Source: Phenylobacterium sp. J367 (GTDB lineage Bacteria; Pseudomonadota; Alphaproteobacteria; Caulobacterales; Caulobacteraceae). From it: DNA of 64,000 nt. Below, in pieces: positions 15,710 through 63,476 of the stretch. The translations under genes and the position numbers were made by a program. Positions within the stretch are counted from its first letter, which is position 1. Each line of letters opens with the position of its first letter. The stretch covers positions 1 through 64,000 of the forward strand of contig NZ_JAJONA010000001.1 in the NCBI RefSeq assembly GCF_024699985.1, given 5' to 3'. Under the pieces are notes generated by a model. The model did not search any database. It had not been told where the DNA came from and worked only from the letters and a program-made list of their open reading frames with translations.

Positions 15710-15917
15710 CTATTCGGCGTCGCCCTTCGGCGGCAGGAAGGCGCTCACCCGGAGCGACAGGTACTTGCCCTTCGCGTTGGACTGTATCCAGCCGCCGAGC
15801 TGCATGGTGGAGCCGTCGGGCAGGGTCAGCGTGCCCTTATAGTCGGGCTGGTGATCCTTCCTCCTTGCGATCGTTCTTGAACAGCGTGCCGGTGCCGGGC
15901 TTGGGAACGTAGCTCAT
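15710..15917 (-). CDS. Small conserved phage protein, frameshifted (copy 1)
   Basis: Same gene as 60817-61023, with one extra C near 15858. Confidence 0.55.
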
Positions 15918-16484
15918 GCCGCCCTCTTCTCGTCCATGGCGCCGCTGTAGTCGGGCTCTTCGTCCGGCTCGGGCTCGACCTTCACCCCGAGGAACGCGCC
16001 CAAGGCCCGAAGCTTCTCTTCCTCGCTCATGGCCTTGAAGTCTTCCAGCTTCTGCCAGGTGCTTCGCTCTGCGCCCTTGGCTCGGGTCCGGCTGAGCGTG
16101 CGGTCGAACTTGCCTGCGTCCTCTGCGGTGCGGAGCTTGTCCACGAAGGCGTCGGGGATCGGCGTCGGGATTCGCCGGCCGTCCTCGCGGGCGTGATCCA
16201 GAACTTTGTACACGCCGAACACGTCCTCGACGCGCCACAGCTCGCGGGGCTCTACGCGGGTGAAGAGGTAGCCGACCAGCAGCGGGCGCTCCTTCACCTC
16301 GCGGGTCTTGCCGTCCCGCTTGTAAGGCCCCCCAGCGGCGTTCGCAGGGGAGATACACGTCGAAGTCGCCCGATCCCCAGCCGCGCTCGCGATAGAGTTC
16401 GCGGAGGCTGGCAACGGTCTTCTGCTCCTGCCGGGTCGCCGTTCGGACGGCGTACCATTTCGGCTGTTCGGCTGCGTCGTCCAT
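15914..16484 (-). CDS. NusG-like factor, frameshifted (copy 1)
   Basis: Same gene as 61020-61589. Copy 1 has six C instead of five near 16328, which breaks the frame inside the NGN domain after about residue 51. Confidence 0.7.
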
Positions 16485-52986: not shown

Positions 52987-53010
52987 GGGGCGAGCCCGAA
53001 GGCCCGCCCC
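52987..53010 (-). terminator. Hairpin after the capsid gene (copy 2)
   Basis: On the minus strand GGGGCGGGCC-TTCG-GGCTCGCCCC, a stable stem with tetraloop, followed after four bases by CCTTTTCC. Placed 14 bases past the capsid stop codon; it may end part of the transcripts or protect the capsid mRNA. Confidence 0.65.
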
Positions 53011-53024
53011 TAGTCGATGCCGGA

Positions 53025-53933
53025 TCAGGCGCCGGCCGAGCCGTAGATGCCGCGAGGGTCGGTCCAGCCGAAGCTGTACCGCTCGTAGCCCTTGTACTTC
53101 AGGTTCGACGTGTCGAAGTCGTTATCCTGCGCGAACTCCGGAGAGATCCGCTCGAAGTGCTTCAGGCCGTTCGGGGCATTCGTCTTCACGAACCACGCGT
53201 CGGTGTCCGTGAGGTAGTGGTTCACCTTCGGGCCTTCCGGGAACATGCCCATCGTCCGCAGAGCGTTGACGGCGTTGTTCGCGGTGTCGTTCTGAAGCTG
53301 CGACTTCAGGATGCGGGTGGCTTCGAAGATGAGCGCCGGCGGCACGACCAGCGCCCGGGGCATCAGGGAGATGCGCAGGCCGCGGTCGTTGACGGCGTTC
53401 ATGATCAGAACGGAGATGTCCTCCAGCGCGGCCTCGGAGAGGTCGGCCGGGGTGGTCAGCTCGTTCTGGAACGTGCCGGCCTGGATCGGGTGATCCGTCG
53501 CCAGCAGTTCCTTCGCGTCGCCGCCGGTGTAGGACGAGTTGAAGCCGCGGTTCAGGATGTTCGCAGCCACGTTCTCCTTCGTCTGACGGAAGGAGAAAGC
53601 GAGGTCGCGGGTCGAGCCCAGGGCCTTCTTCTCGTACTGATTGTCGTCGATCGCCTTGCGGGTCACGATGAAGCCCAGGCCGTATTCGACGTGGGTGTAC
53701 GTCGAGGTGTAGCCCTGGCTGGTCGTGTCGTAGGAGACGCCGCCGCCCTCGTTCTTGATCGGCGCAAGGCCGAACCCAGGCATCAGCACCTCTTCCTCGC
53801 GGCCCTTGGTGGACGACTCGGAAGCGAAGATGTCCCGCCACTCTTGCGGGTGCTCCATGTACTCCTTGCCCCAGACGGCGTTCAGCCCGGGCCAGAGAAG
53901 CTTCGCGATGGAGCCGGTGTTGATCGTGCTCAT
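53025..53933 (-). CDS. Major capsid protein (intact copy)
   Basis: 302 residues from ATG 53933. MSTINTGSIAKLLWPGLNAV, then YTSTYTHVEYGLGFIVTRKA, SFRQTKENVAANILNRGFN, LFR-like loops and MPRALVVPPALIFEATRILK follow the pattern of HK97-fold capsid proteins without a protease domain. It lies three genes after the scaffold, in the usual order, and is followed by a hairpin. No N-terminal cleavage signature is obvious. Confidence 0.85.
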   Translation of the reverse strand: MSTINTGSIAKLLWPGLNAVWGKEYMEHPQEWRDIFASESSTKGREEEVLMPGFGLAPIKNEGGGVSYDTTSQGYTSTYTHVEYGLGFIVTRKAIDDNQYEKKALGSTRDLAFSFRQTKENVAANILNRGFNSSYTGGDAKELLATDHPIQAGTFQNELTTPADLSEAALEDISVLIMNAVNDRGLRISLMPRALVVPPALIFEATRILKSQLQNDTANNAVNALRTMGMFPEGPKVNHYLTDTDAWFVKTNAPNGLKHFERISPEFAQDNDFDTSNLKYKGYERYSFGWTDPRGIYGSAGA

Positions 53934-56203: not shown

Positions 56204-56461
56204 CTACTGCGCGCCAGATTCTGTCTCGTCCGCCTCGGGCGGGATCTCGTAGAAGTCTCTGACGTCAGCCCATTCCAGGGACGCCAGTTCCCCCATCAGG
56301 CGGGCCGAGCATTGCTCCGCCTCCGACATCGGGGTTCCCTTCGCCCATAGGCGGGCCGCCGCCTCCTGCCGGTCCTTGAAGAACTGGAGGAGGAGCGGGG
56401 TCAGCGGGTGGTTGGCCCATGCCTCGAACGTCTTGCGGTCGAACCTCCGGGGCTCCGCCAT
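56204..56461 (-). CDS. Small protein overlapping the portal 3' end, 85 aa (copy 2)
   Basis: MAEPRRFDRKTFEAWANHPL, then LLQFFKDRQEAAARLWAKG and SLEWADVRDFYEIPPEADET. Related short proteins lie next to portal genes in many podoviruses. Most of it (56265-56461) overlaps the last 65 codons of the portal in another frame, and both copies agree, so it is not an artefact of one error. Confidence 0.65.
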   Translation of the reverse strand: MAEPRRFDRKTFEAWANHPLTPLLLQFFKDRQEAAARLWAKGTPMSEAEQCSARLMGELASLEWADVRDFYEIPPEADETESGAQ

Positions 56462-58367
56462 TCGCCATCATCTCCATGGCCTGACGCACGCCCTGCTGCA
56501 CAGCGGCGTCGATGGCCGCCTTGAACTGCGGCGCCATCATCAGGGTTTCGAGTTCGGTCTTCTCGGTCTGGGCGTTGGTCTGGGCGATGTTCGCCGCGGC
56601 CTCCGCCGCCTTGATGCTCAGTTCGCGGTCCTTGGCGTCCGCCTTGGCCTTCTCGACGAGGAGCTTCGGATCGGGCGGCGGCGGGCCTTGCGGAGCCGGG
56701 AACAGCTCCTCGGGCTCCGGCACGCGGGCCGCTTCCAGCGCCCTCAGGGCAATGGCCCGGCTATCCGCCCCCGGCGCACCCATGAACTGCATGGTGAACT
56801 GCGCCTGCGCCATGCGCTGCATGTCCGTCGCCATGTTCGGGTCCGACACCGGCACGACGTCCATATCCCGCGCCTGGTAGTCGGCCTGCGCCACCACGCC
56901 TTCCACGTCCTGGAACGTGAAGTACGCTTCGGGTTGCAGGAACCGGCCATTCAGCCGGTAGAGGATCGCCAACTCCTTCTTCAGCGCTCGGTGCAGGCGC
57001 TTCACGATGGCGGTGAAGGTCTTCAGGCCCTGTTCGATCAGCGCCGAGACCGTGCCCACCGGCATCGTGCCGCGACCCGCGTCCCCGCCCAGAATGTCCT
57101 GCGTCGCCGTGACGTCCTTCGCCGCCTCGATCAGCATTCCGAGGAGTTGGAAGAGGACCGCGGACGGCTCCTTGACCGGCAAGGGCACGATGCTCTGCTG
57201 GAGGTTGGCCCCCGCTGACGTGACCCGCTTCCATTCGCCCGGCTTGAAGCGCAGGTTGCCGGACTTGATCGACACGCCGTCGCCGATGAACCCGCCCTGC
57301 ACGTTGGCCAGGTGGCCCGCGTCCATGAGCTGGTTGATGGTCGAGTTGATGGTGGCGGACAGCGGCTCCAGCAGGGTCCCGAACCCGATGTCGTAGAAGC
57401 TGCCATCCGGCGCCGGGATGAAACCGTACTTCGTAAAGGCGCGCGTCGGCGTGATCCGGACGATCTCGCCTTCCTCGCTCATCTCGACGCCTGTTTCGTC
57501 GTAGCGCGCGACGATCCGAACGACCCGCTCGGTCTCCTTGTGCACCGTGACGATGTACGGCTCGGGATAGCCGTCCTCGTCCAGGTCCCACAGCCGATGC
57601 TGTTCCAGGAACACGTGCGGCGCGTCGTCGTCGTTCGCCGCGTCCGGAGCCCGGCCCAGATCCACCCGCAGCCACAGGCCCGAGCGCATCTTCTCCTCGG
57701 CCTCGTACGGGTACATCGGCGGCAGGACGTGCGTCGCCCGCGGGCAGGTCTCCAGGTCGCGGGTCCAGTAGTTGACCACGAAGTCGCCGGCCGAGACGAG
57801 ATGCGAGCAGTTGTAGCCCTTCAGCGGGTCGAACCACGTCTTGCGGAACGCACAGCCCACAATCGGAAGCTGGATCAGAAGGCGGTCGGTGTCCTCCTCC
57901 CAGTCGTCCATCTCCTCCAAGAGTTGCCAGGACATGTGCTTGCCGATGCGGTCGGCGCGGTCCTGCTTCTCAGGCGTCGGGCGGCCCTTGATGGCGCCCT
58001 TGACGATGTTCGGGCCGTCGATCATCGCCGGGTAGGCGCGGGCGTTGAACTGGATCGCCGCCGTCGAGATCAGCGGGAACTTGATGTTCGACGCCTTCGG
58101 CCAGGGATAGCTCTTCTCCTCCTTCGTCTGGAGGGCGAGCTTCATGGCCTCTTCGTATCGTTCGTCCCAGCCTTCGCGCTTACGGCTATCGACGTCGATC
58201 CGGTACTCTTCGCAGACCTTGGCGCCGATGCGGGCGAGCGTGTTCTCATCCAGGTCGAAGGCGAGGTTCGGGCTGTTGATCGCCGCGGCGAGGTCGAAGC
58301 CGCGCGGCTGCTCCTCGGCCATCTCCTCTTCGGGCAATTCGGCTTCGGTGTCGAAGGCTTCGCTCAC
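56265..58367 (-). CDS. Portal protein (intact copy)
   Basis: 700 residues from GTG 58367, close to P22 gp1 in length. Acidic start, then the portal body (KASNIKFPLISTAAIQFNAR, GKHMSWQLLEEMDDWEEDTD, LPIVGCAFRKTWFDPLKGYN, LEPLSATINSTINQLMDAGH), a helical barrel region near 560-620 and a Gly/Pro/Met-rich tail. It forms the 12-fold DNA gate. The tail is encoded in DNA that also codes for the 85-residue protein in another frame. Confidence 0.9.
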   Translation of the reverse strand: MSEAFDTEAELPEEEMAEEQPRGFDLAAAINSPNLAFDLDENTLARIGAKVCEEYRIDVDSRKREGWDERYEEAMKLALQTKEEKSYPWPKASNIKFPLISTAAIQFNARAYPAMIDGPNIVKGAIKGRPTPEKQDRADRIGKHMSWQLLEEMDDWEEDTDRLLIQLPIVGCAFRKTWFDPLKGYNCSHLVSAGDFVVNYWTRDLETCPRATHVLPPMYPYEAEEKMRSGLWLRVDLGRAPDAANDDDAPHVFLEQHRLWDLDEDGYPEPYIVTVHKETERVVRIVARYDETGVEMSEEGEIVRITPTRAFTKYGFIPAPDGSFYDIGFGTLLEPLSATINSTINQLMDAGHLANVQGGFIGDGVSIKSGNLRFKPGEWKRVTSAGANLQQSIVPLPVKEPSAVLFQLLGMLIEAAKDVTATQDILGGDAGRGTMPVGTVSALIEQGLKTFTAIVKRLHRALKKELAILYRLNGRFLQPEAYFTFQDVEGVVAQADYQARDMDVVPVSDPNMATDMQRMAQAQFTMQFMGAPGADSRAIALRALEAARVPEPEELFPAPQGPPPPDPKLLVEKAKADAKDRELSIKAAEAAANIAQTNAQTEKTELETLMMAPQFKAAIDAAVQQGVRQAMEMMANGGAPEVRPQDVRGMGQPPADPAPPPVLQGPAGGGGPPMGEGNPDVGGGAMLGPPDGGTGVPGMG

Positions 58368-58370
58368 CGT

Positions 58371-59657
58371 CTAGTACCCCGTGGCGCTGTTGCGTCCTGC
58401 ATCGTCGCGCCACTCCTCTTCGTCGTCGTAGGTGCCGCCCGGCTCTTGGTAGGCGATGCACATCAGCCCGAAGGCGTCCGCCGGGTCCGAGGCCCAGTCG
58501 TGCTCCGGCCCCAGCCCAGCCTTGCGCCGGTCGTCACGCCGCTCGTGGTAGGCCGCCAGCGCCTTGATGCCGATCGCCACCGTGGGCGTGTCGTTGAACC
58601 AGATGCGCGGGAACAGACGCCGCGCCGCAGCCACACGCTCGAGCGCCGCGCCCTTGCCCTGGTTGGGCGTGACGTTGACCTCAAAGCCCGCCGCTCGCAG
58701 TTGCTGCTGCGCCGAACCCGACGACGTGACCGTCACGTTCTGGCCGTCGTGGGGAAGCTCCATCAGGGCCTGGTCCCATCCGCCGGCCCGGAGCGCGCTG
58801 ACGTAGTAACCCAGCTCCTGCCCGCGGCCCTCGATGTAGTCGAGCACGCGGATTTCACGCCCGACGAACTGCGCAACCCAGATGGCCGTCGCGTCGCGCC
58901 AGCCCAGATCCCAGAATGCCCGAACCCGCATCAGCGGATCGCGGGCCAGCGCCGTTATCCGGCCCTCGCTCCGCACCGCGGCAAGCTGGGCGGCGTAGTA
59001 GGCGCCATCGACCGCGGAGACGTACTCGCCACCCCACACATGGGCGGCCATCGCCGGGTCAACGCGGTAATCGTTCTCCATCTCCGCCAGCAACGGCGTA
59101 TCGGCGAACCACGGATTGTCCTTCCAGGACACCTCGCGCACGATGCTGTTGGGCGGTGGCCCCGCTGGACCCCGGAACAGCATGTCAACCGGGTCGTGGT
59201 CGAACTCCGGGTTCCACGACCAGATCATCCGCGATCCGGGCTTCCGCATCGTCGGGCGGATCAGGCGGATGGAGCGGCCGGAGAAGCGGTTCGCCTCTTC
59301 GCCCCAGAACACATCGGCGCCCTCGAGCGACTTCAGCGCGTCGGGGTTTCGCCACATGCCCTTGTAGACGAACCGGCCGCCGTTCTTGGCGCGGGTCTCG
59401 TCCCTCAGGCTCTCGAAGTGATCCTCGAGCCCATAGTCGGCAATCTTGTCCTCGATGAGCTGCTTGACCGAGTCCCGCAGGCTCTCCTGGATCTCGCGGG
59501 CGCAGACGATCCGCAGCGGGCTTGCCGCGGCCTGGATCACGAGCGCCCCAGCGATGCTGTGCGACTTCGCCCCGCCCCGGCCGCCGTAGTAGGCGTAGTC
59601 CCGGTGCTGCGGGTCGAACAGCTCCCGGAACGCGCCCGGGATCTTCACCTCAGACAA
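58371..59657 (-). CDS. terL: Terminase large subunit (copy 2)
   Basis: 428 residues. Walker A GGRGGAKS at 25-32, Walker B ADVFWGEE at 114-121, then the RNase H-like nuclease with RAFWDLGWRDATAIW and HDWASDPADAFGL. PBSX/SPP1-type terminases of this size pack by the headful. The start is a TTG that overlaps terS by eight bases; a GTG nine bases further in is an alternative. Motor and nuclease for packaging the concatemer. Confidence 0.9.
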   Translation of the reverse strand: MSEVKIPGAFRELFDPQHRDYAYYGGRGGAKSHSIAGALVIQAAASPLRIVCAREIQESLRDSVKQLIEDKIADYGLEDHFESLRDETRAKNGGRFVYKGMWRNPDALKSLEGADVFWGEEANRFSGRSIRLIRPTMRKPGSRMIWSWNPEFDHDPVDMLFRGPAGPPPNSIVREVSWKDNPWFADTPLLAEMENDYRVDPAMAAHVWGGEYVSAVDGAYYAAQLAAVRSEGRITALARDPLMRVRAFWDLGWRDATAIWVAQFVGREIRVLDYIEGRGQELGYYVSALRAGGWDQALMELPHDGQNVTVTSSGSAQQQLRAAGFEVNVTPNQGKGAALERVAAARRLFPRIWFNDTPTVAIGIKALAAYHERRDDRRKAGLGPEHDWASDPADAFGLMCIAYQEPGGTYDDEEEWRDDAGRNSATGY

Positions 59658-60012
59658 ACTTGACCGTCAGTTCCGACTTGATCGGCGCATCGGCGTCGTC
59701 GCCGCCAACGTGCGCGATCTTGTCTTTCCACTCCTCGGGCGCGGCGTTCTTCAGCGCGAAGATGCGCGCCGTCACCTTGGGCCCGCTGTCGCCGTCCAGA
59801 AGCCCGCGCTCCAGGATCGCCGTGCGTTTGGCCTGGCCGACTTTTACCGCTTCCGAAAAGTCGGGGTGCGCAGCCATCCACTCGTTGATGGAAGAGCGCG
59901 CCACGCCGATCTCGCCGGCATAGGCGGTGAGGCTGTAGCCCTGCCCCATGAACTCTTTCACGCCCTCGCAGTAGGAGGGGTCGTACTTCGTTGGGCGCCC
60001 GACCTGGGCCAT
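59650..60012 (-). CDS. terS: Terminase small subunit (copy 2)
   Basis: 120 residues. GRPTKYDPSYCEGVKEFMGQ and GEIGVARSSINEWMAAHPDF form the N-terminal DNA-binding helix-turn-helix; the helical centre (ILERGLLDGDSGPKVTARIF) and ALKNAAPEEWKDK fit the Terminase_2-like small subunits that recognise pac. Upstream of and overlapping terL. Confidence 0.8.
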   Translation of the reverse strand: MAQVGRPTKYDPSYCEGVKEFMGQGYSLTAYAGEIGVARSSINEWMAAHPDFSEAVKVGQAKRTAILERGLLDGDSGPKVTARIFALKNAAPEEWKDKIAHVGGDDADAPIKSELTVKFV

Positions 60013-60055
60013 ATCCCCTCCTCTGCCGCTCGGTTTCTGTTGCGGCGTCGGTTGG

Positions 60056-60256
60056 TTAGATCTGCTCTTGCGGCACCTGGCTGAAGCGCAGGGCGTTGGC
60101 GAGTTCTTCGTCCTTGATCCAGCCGACCTTGATGTAGGACCCGCCGCCCATGTGCTTCCAGATGGCGCCGTCGTCTCCGACCACCACCCAGGCGCGGGAC
60201 TGTTCGTGGGCCTTGAGGGCTTGCTGGATCAGGCCGTGAAGGACTTGCTCCGACAC
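60056..60256 (-). CDS. Hypothetical protein, 66 aa (copy 2)
   Basis: MSEQVLHGLIQQALKAHEQS, then WVVVGDDGAIWKHMGGG: small mixed alpha/beta protein between the zinc-ribbon gene and terS. No family recognised. Confidence 0.6.
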   Translation of the reverse strand: MSEQVLHGLIQQALKAHEQSRAWVVVGDDGAIWKHMGGGSYIKVGWIKDEELANALRFSQVPQEQI

Positions 60257-60260
60257 GGCC

Positions 60261-60494
60261 TCAGGCCCTCCCCCGCGCCCGGGCCTCGTACGCCGCCATC
60301 AAGCCATCGGCGTTGGGGACGGCCATGAACTCCAAGGAGAGCCGGTTGAGAGCGATGTCGCAGTCCAGGCACACGCCGAGCCAGCGGTTTCCGTTGGCGC
60401 AGACCTGCCACTGGTGGAGGGACGGCGAGCCACAACGAGAACAGGGCACCCGATGGATGCCGCGCGCGGTGTAGGGCTTCCGCCTCCCGGTCAT
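60261..60494 (-). CDS. Zinc-ribbon-like protein, 77 aa (copy 2)
   Basis: CSRCGSPSLHQWQVCANGNR, then LGVCLDCDIALNRL: paired CxxC motifs (about 18-21 and 41-44) predict a zinc ribbon. First gene after the late leader. Role unknown; a transcription or packaging link is possible only by position. Confidence 0.65.
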   Translation of the reverse strand: MTGRRKPYTARGIHRVPCSRCGSPSLHQWQVCANGNRWLGVCLDCDIALNRLSLEFMAVPNADGLMAAYEARARGRA

Positions 60495-60816
60495 CGTGAC
60501 CTCGCGTGAGGGTGAGCCGCTTATGCGGTAGAGCGCATACCGCTTGGTTATGCGGGTTTGCGAATAAGGAGCCCGCTCGCAGACCTCTTGCGTACAGACA
60601 ATGTTGGCGGGTGTGTCTGGGCGGGCGTTGGGTTGCCGCAGGCAAGCGGCGAAGTGGGCATGGCCTTCCCAACGTGGCGCGAGTCGAACTCAGCGCCTGG
60701 GTTGCCCGGCCGGCACGGCACGGAACGCGGACAGTGGCCAACTGCGCTTATAACGCGGGCGCGCGAGCTTTGCAACAACTAATAGCGGTCACGTGTGCGT
60801 GAGTCCGCTAGATGTG
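60495..60816 (-). other. Non-coding leader upstream of the late genes (copy 2)
   Basis: No convincing gene in 322 bases. It contains the promoter at 60748-60775 and, close to the first late gene, nested inverted repeats: TATGCG-GTAGAG-CGCATA (60522-60539) and GCGGTA-GAGCGCA-TACCGC (60525-60543), which exclude each other. TATGCGG recurs at 60549-60555. Identical in copy 1. Confidence 0.6.
60748..60775 (-). promoter_or_regulatory. Candidate late promoter (copy 2)
   Basis: On the minus strand TTGCAA (60775-60770), 16 bases, TTATAA (60753-60748). It would start a transcript near 60740 with an about 245-base leader before the zinc-ribbon gene. Both hexamers are palindromic, so direction is set by context. 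Confidence 0.5.
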
Positions 60817-61023
60817 CTATTCGGCGTCGCCCTTCGGCGGCAGGAAGGCGCTCACCCGGAGCGACAGGTACTTGCCCTTCGCGTTGGACTGTATCCAGCC
60901 GCCGAGCTGCATGGTGGAGCCGTCGGGCAGGGTCAGCGTGCCCTTATAGTCGGGCTGGTGATCCTTCTCCTTGCGATCGTTCTTGAACAGCGTGCCGGTG
61001 CCGGGCTTGGGAACGTAGCTCAT
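60817..61023 (-). CDS. Small conserved phage protein, 68 aa (intact copy)
   Basis: MSYVPKPGTGTLFKNDRKEK, HQPDYKGTLTLPDGSTMQLG, GWIQSNAKGKYLSLRVS: a beta-rich small protein of a type seen in many temperate phages near replication genes. Overlaps the NusG-like stop by four bases. Function unknown. Confidence 0.65.
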   Translation of the reverse strand: MSYVPKPGTGTLFKNDRKEKDHQPDYKGTLTLPDGSTMQLGGWIQSNAKGKYLSLRVSAFLPPKGDAE

Positions 61024-61589
61024 GCCGCCCTCTTCTCGTCCATGGCGCCGCTGTAGTCGGGCTCTTCGTCCGGCTCGGGCTCGACCTTCACCCCGAGGAA
61101 CGCGCCCAAGGCCCGAAGCTTCTCTTCCTCGCTCATGGCCTTGAAGTCTTCCAGCTTCTGCCAGGTGCTTCGCTCTGCGCCCTTGGCTCGGGTCCGGCTG
61201 AGCGTGCGGTCGAACTTGCCTGCGTCCTCTGCGGTGCGGAGCTTGTCCACGAAGGCGTCGGGGATCGGCGTCGGGATTCGCCGGCCGTCCTCGCGGGCGT
61301 GATCCAGAACTTTGTACACGCCGAACACGTCCTCGACGCGCCACAGCTCGCGGGGCTCTACGCGGGTGAAGAGGTAGCCGACCAGCAGCGGGCGCTCCTT
61401 CACCTCGCGGGTCTTGCCGTCCCGCTTGTAAGGCCCCCAGCGGCGTTCGCAGGGGAGATACACGTCGAAGTCGCCCGATCCCCAGCCGCGCTCGCGATAG
61501 AGTTCGCGGAGGCTGGCAACGGTCTTCTGCTCCTGCCGGGTCGCCGTTCGGACGGCGTACCATTTCGGCTGTTCGGCTGCGTCGTCCAT
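61020..61589 (-). CDS. NusG-like transcription factor (intact copy)
   Basis: 189 residues. WYAVRTATRQEQKTVASLRE, VYLPCERRW, then REVKERPLLVGYLFTRVEPR and VYKVLDH match the NGN domain of NusG/RfaH (about 9-95), which grips the RNA polymerase clamp. No KOW domain is evident; the C-terminal about 90 residues are helical and acidic (EPEPDEEPDYSG). It sits just upstream of the late leader and promoter, the place of Q in lambda, so it may be the late antiterminator. Host NusG recruits Rho or ribosomes through KOW; lack of KOW would free it of both. Confidence 0.75.
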   Translation of the reverse strand: MDDAAEQPKWYAVRTATRQEQKTVASLRELYRERGWGSGDFDVYLPCERRWGPYKRDGKTREVKERPLLVGYLFTRVEPRELWRVEDVFGVYKVLDHAREDGRRIPTPIPDAFVDKLRTAEDAGKFDRTLSRTRAKGAERSTWQKLEDFKAMSEEEKLRALGAFLGVKVEPEPDEEPDYSGAMDEKRAA

Positions 61590-61637
61590 CTGTTCCTCGA
61601 TAATGCGCTAAGTGGGTTGTTTTGTCTAGTGTTTCTG

Positions 61638-61778
61638 CTATTCTGAACGCGCTGCAGAGCTGGCTTCCGCCAGCAATGCCAGCGATGCTACGAGCACGGC
61701 GACAAAGGCTGGCCACTCCCCGGCAAGCGCCGTCTGGGGCATGGCGAAGCCGAGCGCCAAGTAGGTGAGCATCCTCAC
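61638..61778 (-). CDS. Tiny membrane protein, 46 aa (copy 2)
   Basis: GTG start overlapping the previous stop (GTGA), or ATG at 61772. LTYLALGFAMPQTALAGEWP looks like a signal peptide (ALA-G); then VAVLVASLALLAEA, one more hydrophobic run. Pairs with the next tiny gene. Confidence 0.45.
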   Translation of the reverse strand: MRMLTYLALGFAMPQTALAGEWPAFVAVLVASLALLAEASSAARSE

Positions 61779-61900
61779 CGGATCACCACGTGCTCGGCGA
61801 GCCACAACACCCCGGCAAGCAGGCAGCCGAGGCTAGCCACCACACCGATGACGGACAGGACGCAAAGCGCCCTAATCAGCGGCCCAACATCAGGCATCAT
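61775..61900 (-). CDS. Tiny membrane protein, 41 aa (copy 2)
   Basis: MMPDVGPLIRALCVLSVIGV, then VASLGCLLAGVLWLAEHVV: one long membrane helix. The ATG follows the upstream TGA directly, and its stop overlaps the next start. Unknown role. Confidence 0.5.
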   Translation of the reverse strand: MMPDVGPLIRALCVLSVIGVVASLGCLLAGVLWLAEHVVIR

Positions 61901-62236
61901 TCACCCCTCTCCTTCTCCATCTGGTCTTTGATCTCCAAGAACCAGAGCTGCTGTAAGGTCGTGACCAGATCCAGATCGAAGCTCTTCGGCTCGCACAGCC
62001 ATCGCGGCATGGTGTTCGTATCCGGCCTGAGTTCTGTTCGGAGCCGCTTCCTCAACAGCCTTCCAGGCTTCACACAGAGCCCGGAAGCAGGAGGAGGCGC
62101 GTTCGATGTTGTAGGCCCGGTCTTCCCGGGAGAGATCACCAGACGCAGCCCCGTGGCCGTGGAACGAGAGCTTCCCAGCGATCACAGCAACAGCCTTCGC
62201 GGCCGATCCGAGGGCGTCGGGGGCGTGGCGGGTCAT
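61901..62236 (-). CDS. Hypothetical protein, 111 aa (copy 2)
   Basis: Start at 62236 (MTRHAPDALGSAAKAVAVIA), whose ATGA overlaps the methyltransferase stop. Helical, with RAYNIERASSCFRALCEAWK. A frame beginning at 62139 in another phase is considered a shadow. Confidence 0.6.
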   Translation of the reverse strand: MTRHAPDALGSAAKAVAVIAGKLSFHGHGAASGDLSREDRAYNIERASSCFRALCEAWKAVEEAAPNRTQAGYEHHAAMAVRAEELRSGSGHDLTAALVLGDQRPDGEGEG

Positions 62237-62946
62237 GCGGCGAGCTCGCCCACCCGGTAGGCCAGGTATTGCAGCCACAGGTGCTCCATGTAGGCCGGCG
62301 GGATCGCTTCACTCAGTTCGTTGAGCGTCGCCCAATCCATACCCATGGCTTCTGAGCACGCGGCGCGGTGTCCGCCCTCCCAGACGTCGCGAGTGCCCCG
62401 GCCTCCGAACTTGGCCGAGCGCTTCCGGCCGTGGCCGCCATAGACTCCGATGACGGGGCCGCCGGAGTGAGCGCACTGGCAGGGGGCGCTGATCGGAAAG
62501 CTCGCCATGAAGAGGCGGTGGCGGTGGAGTTCGCAGCCCTGCGCCCCCAGGCCAAACATCGTGCCGCAAAGCGTGATCGCGCCGGGCATCCACGGGGCGG
62601 CGTCTTCGACGTTCTCCAGGGTCCAGTCGCAGCCGCTGGCCTTCAGGATAGCCAGCGTATCGGGGATCTGGTTCGGGTGCTCGTCACCCTTGGCGCCCGG
62701 CGCGTGCTTCAGCTTCGTGAACTTCTGACACTTCGGCGAGGCATGGACGAAGTCGAACCGCTCGCGCAGCTCTTCAGCGGTGATCGCCAGCACGTCCCGC
62801 TGCTCGAAGGCGTCGCCGCAATAGCGGCGCTGCGGCTTGATATCGAAGCCGGTGACGTGGATGCGGACACCGGCCCGGGACGCGGCGCGCTGGATGCCCC
62901 GCGTCGCTCCGCCCGAACAGCAGTAGAGATCAGCGACCCGCAGCAT
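62233..62946 (-). CDS. C5 cytosine DNA methyltransferase (copy 2)
   Basis: 237 residues from ATG 62946, which shares one base with the previous stop. Motif I ADLYCCSGGATRGIQRA (5-21) binds SAM; motif IV is ASPKCQKFT with the catalytic Cys73, but Lys replaces the Pro normally before it (PPCQ or SPPCQ); motif VI is LENVEDA; HRHRLF is motif VIII. The target-recognition region is short. There is no restriction gene nearby, so it is an orphan enzyme that likely protects phage DNA or alters regulation. A long upstream extension of the frame is antisense to neighbours and ignored. Confidence 0.85.
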   Translation of the reverse strand: MLRVADLYCCSGGATRGIQRAASRAGVRIHVTGFDIKPQRRYCGDAFEQRDVLAITAEELRERFDFVHASPKCQKFTKLKHAPGAKGDEHPNQIPDTLAILKASGCDWTLENVEDAAPWMPGAITLCGTMFGLGAQGCELHRHRLFMASFPISAPCQCAHSGGPVIGVYGGHGRKRSAKFGGRGTRDVWEGGHRAACSEAMGMDWATLNELSEAIPPAYMEHLWLQYLAYRVGELAA

Positions 62947-63476
62947 CACTCGGCCGCCATGGGCGCGCGCTGCGCCTCGAACAGCTTCGACCGGAGGCGT
63001 GAGGCCTCCTCCAGGTGGCGCTTCTCCTCGGCCTTCCAGATGCGCCAGTTGTCGGGCATCTCCTCGGCATCCAAGTGAACGCCCATCATCCGCTTGCCTT
63101 GCGAGGTGTTGCGGAACATCGGCCCGGCCTTGGACCCCGCCTCGTGGGCGAGGATCGTGTGCTCCCGGATCTTCTCGCGGAGGCTCATGGCGGCGTACTC
63201 GCTCGCCGTCGCCGGGCGCCAGATCTGAACCCGCTCGCCCTGCACCGGCAGGCTTTCGCGGATCAGCGGCAGGAGCTGGCCGGCGGTCGGAAACTTCGCC
63301 GTCCCCGAGTGCCGCCACTTCCGGCAGGCCGTGTTGATCGAATCCAGCGGGAACTCGGCCAGGTCGTTCGCCCAGTCCCGCAGCCAGAGCGTCCGCTGCT
63401 CCACGCTCATCAGCGGCGGGCGGCAGTGGACGGCGAGGGCTTCGATGGCGTCGTAAACTTCGGTCTTTTCGGCCAT
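62946..63476 (-). CDS. Replication-module protein, possible helicase loader (copy 2)
   Basis: 176 residues. WLRDWANDLAEFPLDSINTA, CRKWRHSGTAKFPTAGQLLP, LIRESLP resembles the N-terminal part of phage proteins found beside replication initiators (EFP, W-R, P-T-x-x-x-L), some of which load DnaB helicase. The C-terminal half is charged helix. Name and role are provisional; support comes from its place after the DnaA-like and initiator-like genes. Confidence 0.6.
   Translation of the reverse strand: MAEKTEVYDAIEALAVHCRPPLMSVEQRTLWLRDWANDLAEFPLDSINTACRKWRHSGTAKFPTAGQLLPLIRESLPVQGERVQIWRPATASEYAAMSLREKIREHTILAHEAGSKAGPMFRNTSQGKRMMGVHLDAEEMPDNWRIWKAEEKRHLEEASRLRSKLFEAQRAPMAAE

Follow-up and report, generated by a model that had tools for sequence, protein, structure and literature searches.

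The closest described counterparts of the gene analysed here are found in rhizobial phages. A NusG-like antiterminator is already annotated in the records of Sinorhizobium phage phiLM21 and Rhizobium phages RHph_N28_2 and RHph_TM3_3_3. The available portion of a 2025 study reports a transcription antiterminator ORF in all the phiLM21-like prophages covered there, and has the early region of phiLM21 end with it (PMC12429752). Prophage-borne rfaH-like genes are noted in the sections available of PMC7593976, and the phage passages available of PMC7819879 deal with lambda and host factors; no word beginning with "phage" occurs in PMC9247905 or PMC13015549, nor does "nusg" in PMC5537653. Among the open-access matches listed, no title or abstract describes a test of a phage NGN-domain protein as a late regulator.

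The window, by which we mean the whole 64,000-nucleotide stretch analysed, is the start of a 4.8-Mb contig of the soil bacterium Phenylobacterium sp. J367. Its minus strand encodes, at 61020..61589, a 189-aa NGN-domain protein of NusG type without KOW, which we consider likely to be a Q-like late antiterminator, a phage-borne NusG paralogue serving as the late switch. Upstream lie a DNA methyltransferase-like ORF and replication-like ORFs, as read from the ORF list (PHROG has no match for the ORF at 62946-63476), and just 5' of the gene, on its strand, is a possible promoter of its own, TAGACA-17-CATTAT (61600..61628; 1 such site found vs 0.2 expected). Downstream on the same strand, a 67-aa ORF (60817..61020) overlaps the NGN stop codon by ATGA and has weak likeness to DUF736 (E 0.11, below cut-off). 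It is followed by a non-coding late leader of about 320 bp (60495..60816), a 77-aa ORF with CxxC pairs (60261..60494) as the first of two small ORFs before terS, and then the genes for the terminase small subunit (terS, 59650..60012; phrog_309, 2.1e-25), terminase large subunit (terL, 58371..59657; phrog_3717, 1.7e-45), portal protein (56265..58367; phrog_1216, 8.6e-24) and major head protein (53025..53933; phrog_371, 1.3e-18). The original prediction had put the gene at the position of lambda Q, before the virion operon, and both placements are borne out: the early genes lie on one side of it and the late leader on the other, with a promoter-like site directly downstream and terS, terL, portal and major capsid genes following on its strand. 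It had also put the gene immediately before the non-coding leader, which is nearly so, the 67-aa ORF alone intervening before the non-coding part at about 60495-60816.

Positions 1-33352 of the contig are repeated at 45100-78456 with 99.87% identity, and one complete prophage of ~45.1 kb appears to be preceded by a partial second copy in tandem. The NGN gene of this partial copy (15840..16484, minus strand) is frame shifted by a homopolymer length difference near 16328. Because homopolymer indels, concentrated toward the contig start, account for most differences between the prophage copies, the duplication may be an assembly error, and the shifted frame probably is one.

The NGN assignment of the 189-aa protein, and the lack of a visible KOW that was predicted with it, both hold up. 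Pfam NusG (PF02357) matches residues 9-118 (E 4.5e-11; 43.6 bits vs a cut-off of 22.2) and PHROG 6386, "transcription antiterminator", matches at 4.1e-11; KOW has no Pfam match in the protein, and is found by Pfam in 1/28 of its phage relatives. Same-genus relatives retain, by eye, a KOW-like end. The NCBIfam equivalogs for NusG (21.1 against 135.7), UpxY and LoaP all stay below cut-off. Structure prediction against NusG and RfaH had been proposed as a check, and an AlphaFold2 model built from 28 aligned phage proteins (mean pLDDT 80, pTM 0.72) has an NGN fold over about residues 6-125, with pLDDT blocks of 75-95 across residues 1-130. Foldseek and VIA-align both lead from this model to NusG and RfaH structures (best Foldseek E 1.7e-6; VIA against NusG, Z 13.5 over 119 residues, rmsd 3.5). 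Beyond the fold, the model has no C-terminal strands and places helices at residues 128-164 with low confidence (pLDDT roughly 58-73 there, about 48-73 over the tail); this low-confidence tail aligns to the helical hairpin of autoinhibited RfaH in 2oug (Z 10.1, 127 residues, rmsd 5.0) and in 8pfg (Z 10.5, 126 residues, rmsd 4.0). The tail of the gene is real coding sequence, since its codon bias is normal: third-codon-position GC is 0.88 there, 0.86 in the NGN part, 0.89 in terL and 0.87 in the portal gene.

The host encodes its housekeeping NusG elsewhere (C1:4356664-4356975, 111 bits), and the phage protein is therefore a paralogue. Single-protein searches found no close relatives in IMG/VR, INPHARED phages (1e-5) or the species genomes. 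Loosening the INPHARED search to E up to 10 gave 10 matching phage records, in 5 of which, one of the two phiLM21 entries among them, gene order was inspected. Among 149 relative genomes, 7 have a match, our own genome counted; the weakest (G134) resembles a housekeeping NusG on reading and was set aside.

More distant relatives are plentiful, and their gene order repeats that of the window. Searching IMG/VR with an alignment of four proteins yielded 54 NGN loci, 42 of which have terL downstream on the same strand, at a median of 2430 bp from the NGN stop. Of the 12 loci without a terL match, 9 have more than 5.6 kb of downstream sequence, and in these terL is either too diverged for the profiles used or absent. 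The order NGN gene, then terL, also occurs in phiLM21, N28_2 and TM3_3_3 and, under no antiterminator name, in Bradyrhizobium phage ppBjS10J-1 (where terL is our own profile match and not the record's annotation) and Synechococcus phage MinM1. An NGN gene before terL is a recurrent phage design, already named in three phage records, and the "unusual regulatory design" of the original prediction has to be given up.

The slot before terL is also occupied by a second, dissimilar family. Among 20 IMG/VR loci with a related terL, three have NGN upstream (L086, L088, L104) and eight have a protein of another family in its place (L087, L089-L091, L093, L094, L101 and L103); in these eight, terL shares 62-82% identity with the terL of the window. 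Neither family is seen in the remaining nine, seven of which have less than 2 kb upstream; L095 and L097, with 4 kb and 8 kb upstream, are true misses. The other family, of ~184-233 aa (one ORF is longer, with an uncertain start), stands upstream of terL in 20 of the 26 loci found with it (L243-L268). It has no profile similarity to NGN. A comparison with DUF6456 by hhalign gives a probability of 69% (E 4.4e-5) against 0.38-0.79 for four control comparisons; an earlier comparison with fewer sequences had given 21%, and Pfam finds no DUF6456 match in these proteins. Weak DUF6456 matches in our own genome look like sigma factors on reading and were discarded. Enrichment of promoter-like sites in the 300 bp after the genes of this family gives p 0.02 over 6 loci. 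GafZ of Caulobacter is, we take it, a DUF6456 protein. In the parts available of PMC11150451, published evidence makes GafZ the antiterminator of the Caulobacter gene transfer agent. Since the slot occupant is DUF6456-like and GafZ antiterminates, the exchange supports, by analogy, antitermination as the job of the slot.

Within the late leader of the window, one short block is conserved. When 60000-62300 was compared with the other loci by blastn, the sole kind of match was a 28-bp block (60756..60783, minus strand) that is 26/28 identical in a prophage of Phenylobacterium deserti, a genome listed under the same genus, where two overlapping loci show it. With it goes a promoter-like site, TTGCAA-17-TATAAG (60747..60775, minus strand), our candidate late promoter, whose P. 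deserti counterpart is TTGCAA-17-CATAGT; in both prophages, the block lies ~180-240 bp and the site 189-244 bp past the NGN stop. Against 200 shuffles, p is 0.03 for the window site and 0.06 for its P. deserti counterpart. The late genes of the two prophages are collinear yet diverged (42% amino-acid identity for the portal, 49% for the capsid; no match of the P. deserti terL to that of the window). The 18-bp core of the block is the longest exact match between these two prophages, the pair on which the comparison rests, but other exact matches of 17 bp also join the two, some of them in reversed orientation. Of the 101 genus genomes, 2 contain a 25-base pattern taken from the block (two degenerate positions, up to two mismatches); its three occurrences all follow NGN genes. 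With a 21-base form in which 19 bases are fixed, IMG/VR and the species genomes give a single stretch each, and each time it is the P. deserti prophage. Within the collections searched, the block is thus confined, at the level of sequence, to the window phage and the P. deserti prophage. Both also have CACATCTAGCG (60806..60816, minus strand) at a nearly equal distance upstream of the block, the spacing being judged by eye, and a distal leader block with GCCCGC...GCGGGC arms (60568..60628, minus strand) has, by eye, a similar counterpart in P. deserti.

Rfam has no family at gathering score in the leader, nor in four Phenylobacterium or terL-related loci; its fold is not clearly better than those of shuffled sequences (z -1.15); and no intrinsic terminator was found on its strand, the single site being on the opposite one. 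It looks tRNA-like by eye, but ARAGORN finds no tRNA in the window. Directly 3' of the capsid gene is a 10-bp GC hairpin with a TTCG loop and a T-rich tail (52987..53010, minus strand), a candidate read-through site and probably the capsid hairpin past which the original prediction suggested reporter assays. Over the late region as a whole, terminator-like sites are not in excess (9 found vs 12.0 +- 3.4 expected).

In the rhizobial relatives, both a predicted promoter and an RNA element can be placed. In the stretch that runs from 70 bp ahead of the NGN stop to 60 bp beyond it, 31 NGN loci (the window excluded) have a median sigma70-like score of 5.2, against 2.1 at 319 other gene ends (Mann-Whitney p 7e-12); 19 of the 31 exceed the 95% level of the controls. 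At the best site, the last base of the -10 box falls 11 nt short of the stop codon's final base in 6/31 loci; in 10/31 (L088 scoring low) the box overlies the stop, ending 3 nt past it. In the 300 bp after NGN genes, promoter-like sites are not enriched (4 of 33 loci at p<0.05; Fisher p 0.49); the rhizobial phages have theirs across the end of the gene.

Many of the leaders that follow contain a conserved element. From 75 slot loci we took 39 non-redundant leaders, the loci left out being the copies in our own genome, those that were too short and a small number besides; the 8-mer GGGAATAC occurs in 12 of these 39 and in 18 of 955 windows from the same loci. Aligned, the element around it reads GUGAUUUG, a variable part, CGGACC, a hairpin and GGGAAUACUCG; A3 took in 22 of 29 unique motif leaders. 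A scan of IMG/VR with the motif alone returned at least 120 stretches. An NGN gene stands no more than 1.5 kb upstream in 70 of the 80 motif loci examined, which speaks for specificity and not for independent discovery, because NGN loci had supplied the pattern and near-identical prophages are numerous; of the other ten, three have enough sequence and no NGN gene, and seven have less than 300 nt upstream. The conserved GUGAUUUG...CGGACC-hairpin-GGGAAUACUCG arrangement is seen across the NGN-gene leaders L123-L202. In 55 of 65 unique motif loci, TTGnnn-N17-TAnnn[T/A/G] ends 6-15 nt before UGAUUUG (0.8% of random windows), with a gap of exactly 8 nt in 36 of the 55. Given this spacing, the RNA element most likely starts at the first bases of the late transcript, whose start is predicted.

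The inner hairpin of this RNA holds in a shuffle test, with at least two extra pairs in 39/57 (8.7 expected), and RNAalifold gives 10 pairs, two of them with changes on both sides that may be lineage effects. An outer stem drawn by eye failed its control (mean 4.42 vs 4.54 for shuffled partners) and was dropped. Five single folds gave z of -1.70, -2.21, -2.10, +1.12 and +0.24. The covariance model R1 recovered three further strong leaders (L085, L040, L048) and three weak ones, and matches two of three named phage records once each, the third, ppBjS10J-1, having no match. A search of 385 class genomes gave no match, but scored no more than 10 candidates in each and is hence uninformative. At gathering score, Rfam reports tRNAs alone in six rhizobial loci and has no match for the element. 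In the window leader R1 has no match at E up to 5, and its best match in the window lies outside the leader (15.8 bits, E 2.1). The modelled phiLM21-type protein of L050 has an all-helical end, with pLDDT blocks of 83-93, one of 69, and values down to 44 in the last 16 residues.

A few other features of these leaders were seen in passing. A tRNA-Met gene lies between the NGN gene and terminase in two rhizobial phages (L012, 16440-16516; L031, 1347-1422), one of the two on the strand opposite the late genes. By eye, the leaders of L017 and L086 have in common a GGCCGATCC-CGAG...CCGGGCACGACGCCGGG...CTC block with a paired change in its outer arms, and a different, repeated-looking element, TTGGGATGCC...GCGATCCACA...GCCGGTCCC, follows the NGN gene in L048, L035, L056, L071, L074 and L079; the RNA element modelled as R1 lies 0.6-1 kb further downstream in L048 and L040.

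Three other explanations bear on these data. The NGN protein might act in general anti-silencing, competing with host NusG and blocking Rho on all phage transcripts from no specific loading site. An NGN domain can bind polymerase by itself. A 189-aa protein without KOW, from a family in which KOW is so rare, would suit such a role, KOW being the Rho-binding part of NusG in the sections available of PMC7593976. We nevertheless think this unlikely: the tight linkage to a promoter, joined in the relatives by a conserved RNA where the late transcript begins, points to a specific target, and the KOW-like end kept by same-genus relatives also speaks against it. Quite improbable is an N-like role, in which the protein would target lysis genes or the early transcript and not the late operon. 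Such a role is proposed for a NusG-like protein of Helicobacter pylori prophages, likened to lambda N and with targets that include the lysis cassette, in the available text of PMC11321410, and the promoter-like site 5' of the window gene would fit it; in the phages examined, however, the NGN gene adjoins the late promoter and terminase and not the start of the early genes. That the gene is a neutral passenger or a decaying remnant that has lost KOW and function, as the frame-shifted copy and the lack of close relatives in single-protein searches might suggest, is highly improbable given normal codon bias over its full length, an intact frame in the other copy, a slot conserved across phages and a conserved promoter block downstream.

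If the NGN protein is a late antiterminator, as we think probable, it would be made as the final regulatory product of the early region, its NGN domain would bind host RNA polymerase, and it would be loaded near the late promoter just past its own gene. Polymerase so loaded would no longer stop at pauses and terminators, whether in the leader or within the ~20-kb virion operon, and would read through hairpins such as 53010-52987. In the rhizobial relatives, the conserved RNA with which the late transcript starts would probably guide loading. The window yielded no such RNA element; the loading signal there may therefore be either the 28-bp promoter block itself or a leader element that escaped recognition. 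A wider reading, which we offer tentatively and hold to be somewhat doubtful, is that alphaproteobacterial phages have a second class of RNA-guided NusG paralogues, in which a KOW-less NGN protein with a helical end is brought onto RNA polymerase by a conserved element at the extreme 5' end of a late transcript that starts from a promoter overlapping the end of the antiterminator gene; the window phage would then be a divergent representative, its own loading signal residing in the 28-bp block. New here are the promoter-like block common to the window and P. deserti, the rhizobial gene-end promoter with its 5' RNA, and the exchange of the slot. If these proposals are true, phages have made a late switch out of NusG, the universal elongation factor, at the place that Q holds in lambda, and unrelated proteins have been swapped in a lambda-Q-like slot. 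This would also offer a way into the question of how NusG without KOW evades Rho.

Set against known systems, the window protein is most like the rhizobial antiterminators (phiLM21 gp34, RHph_N28_2, RHph_TM3_3_3), having in common with them the NGN domain, a predicted helical end without KOW and a gene before leader and terminase. It differs in being 31-32% identical to them, and the 5' RNA element, which was not detected in the window, and the phiLM21-type promoter over the gene end are theirs. Lambda Q with pR' is alike in position (regulator gene, late promoter, predicted in the window, leader, late genes) and is an unrelated protein; no Q family is among the Pfam or PHROG matches of the 189-aa protein. 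The Q binding element sits between -35 and -10 in the sections available of PMC11150451. GafZ is likewise the antiterminator of a phage-like cluster, with a distant DUF6456 relative in the same slot, but its family has no profile similarity to NGN. RfaH and UpxY are specialised NusG paralogues too, and the predicted helical tail aligns, at low confidence, with the autoinhibited RfaH hairpin, while the UpxY score is 36.1 against a cut-off of 100. LoaP of Bacillus velezensis is alike in being a NusG paralogue whose target is a leader that precedes a long operon, although the window protein scores 19.1 against the LoaP cut-off of 125 and LoaP differs in touching RNA, in the part of its description available, via both N- and C-terminal domains. 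Its leader RNA element gives it a likeness to the rhizobial leaders, though the RNA differs; the promoter and RNA of these relatives make up a defined cis element, and LoaP alone is otherwise reported with a specific RNA.
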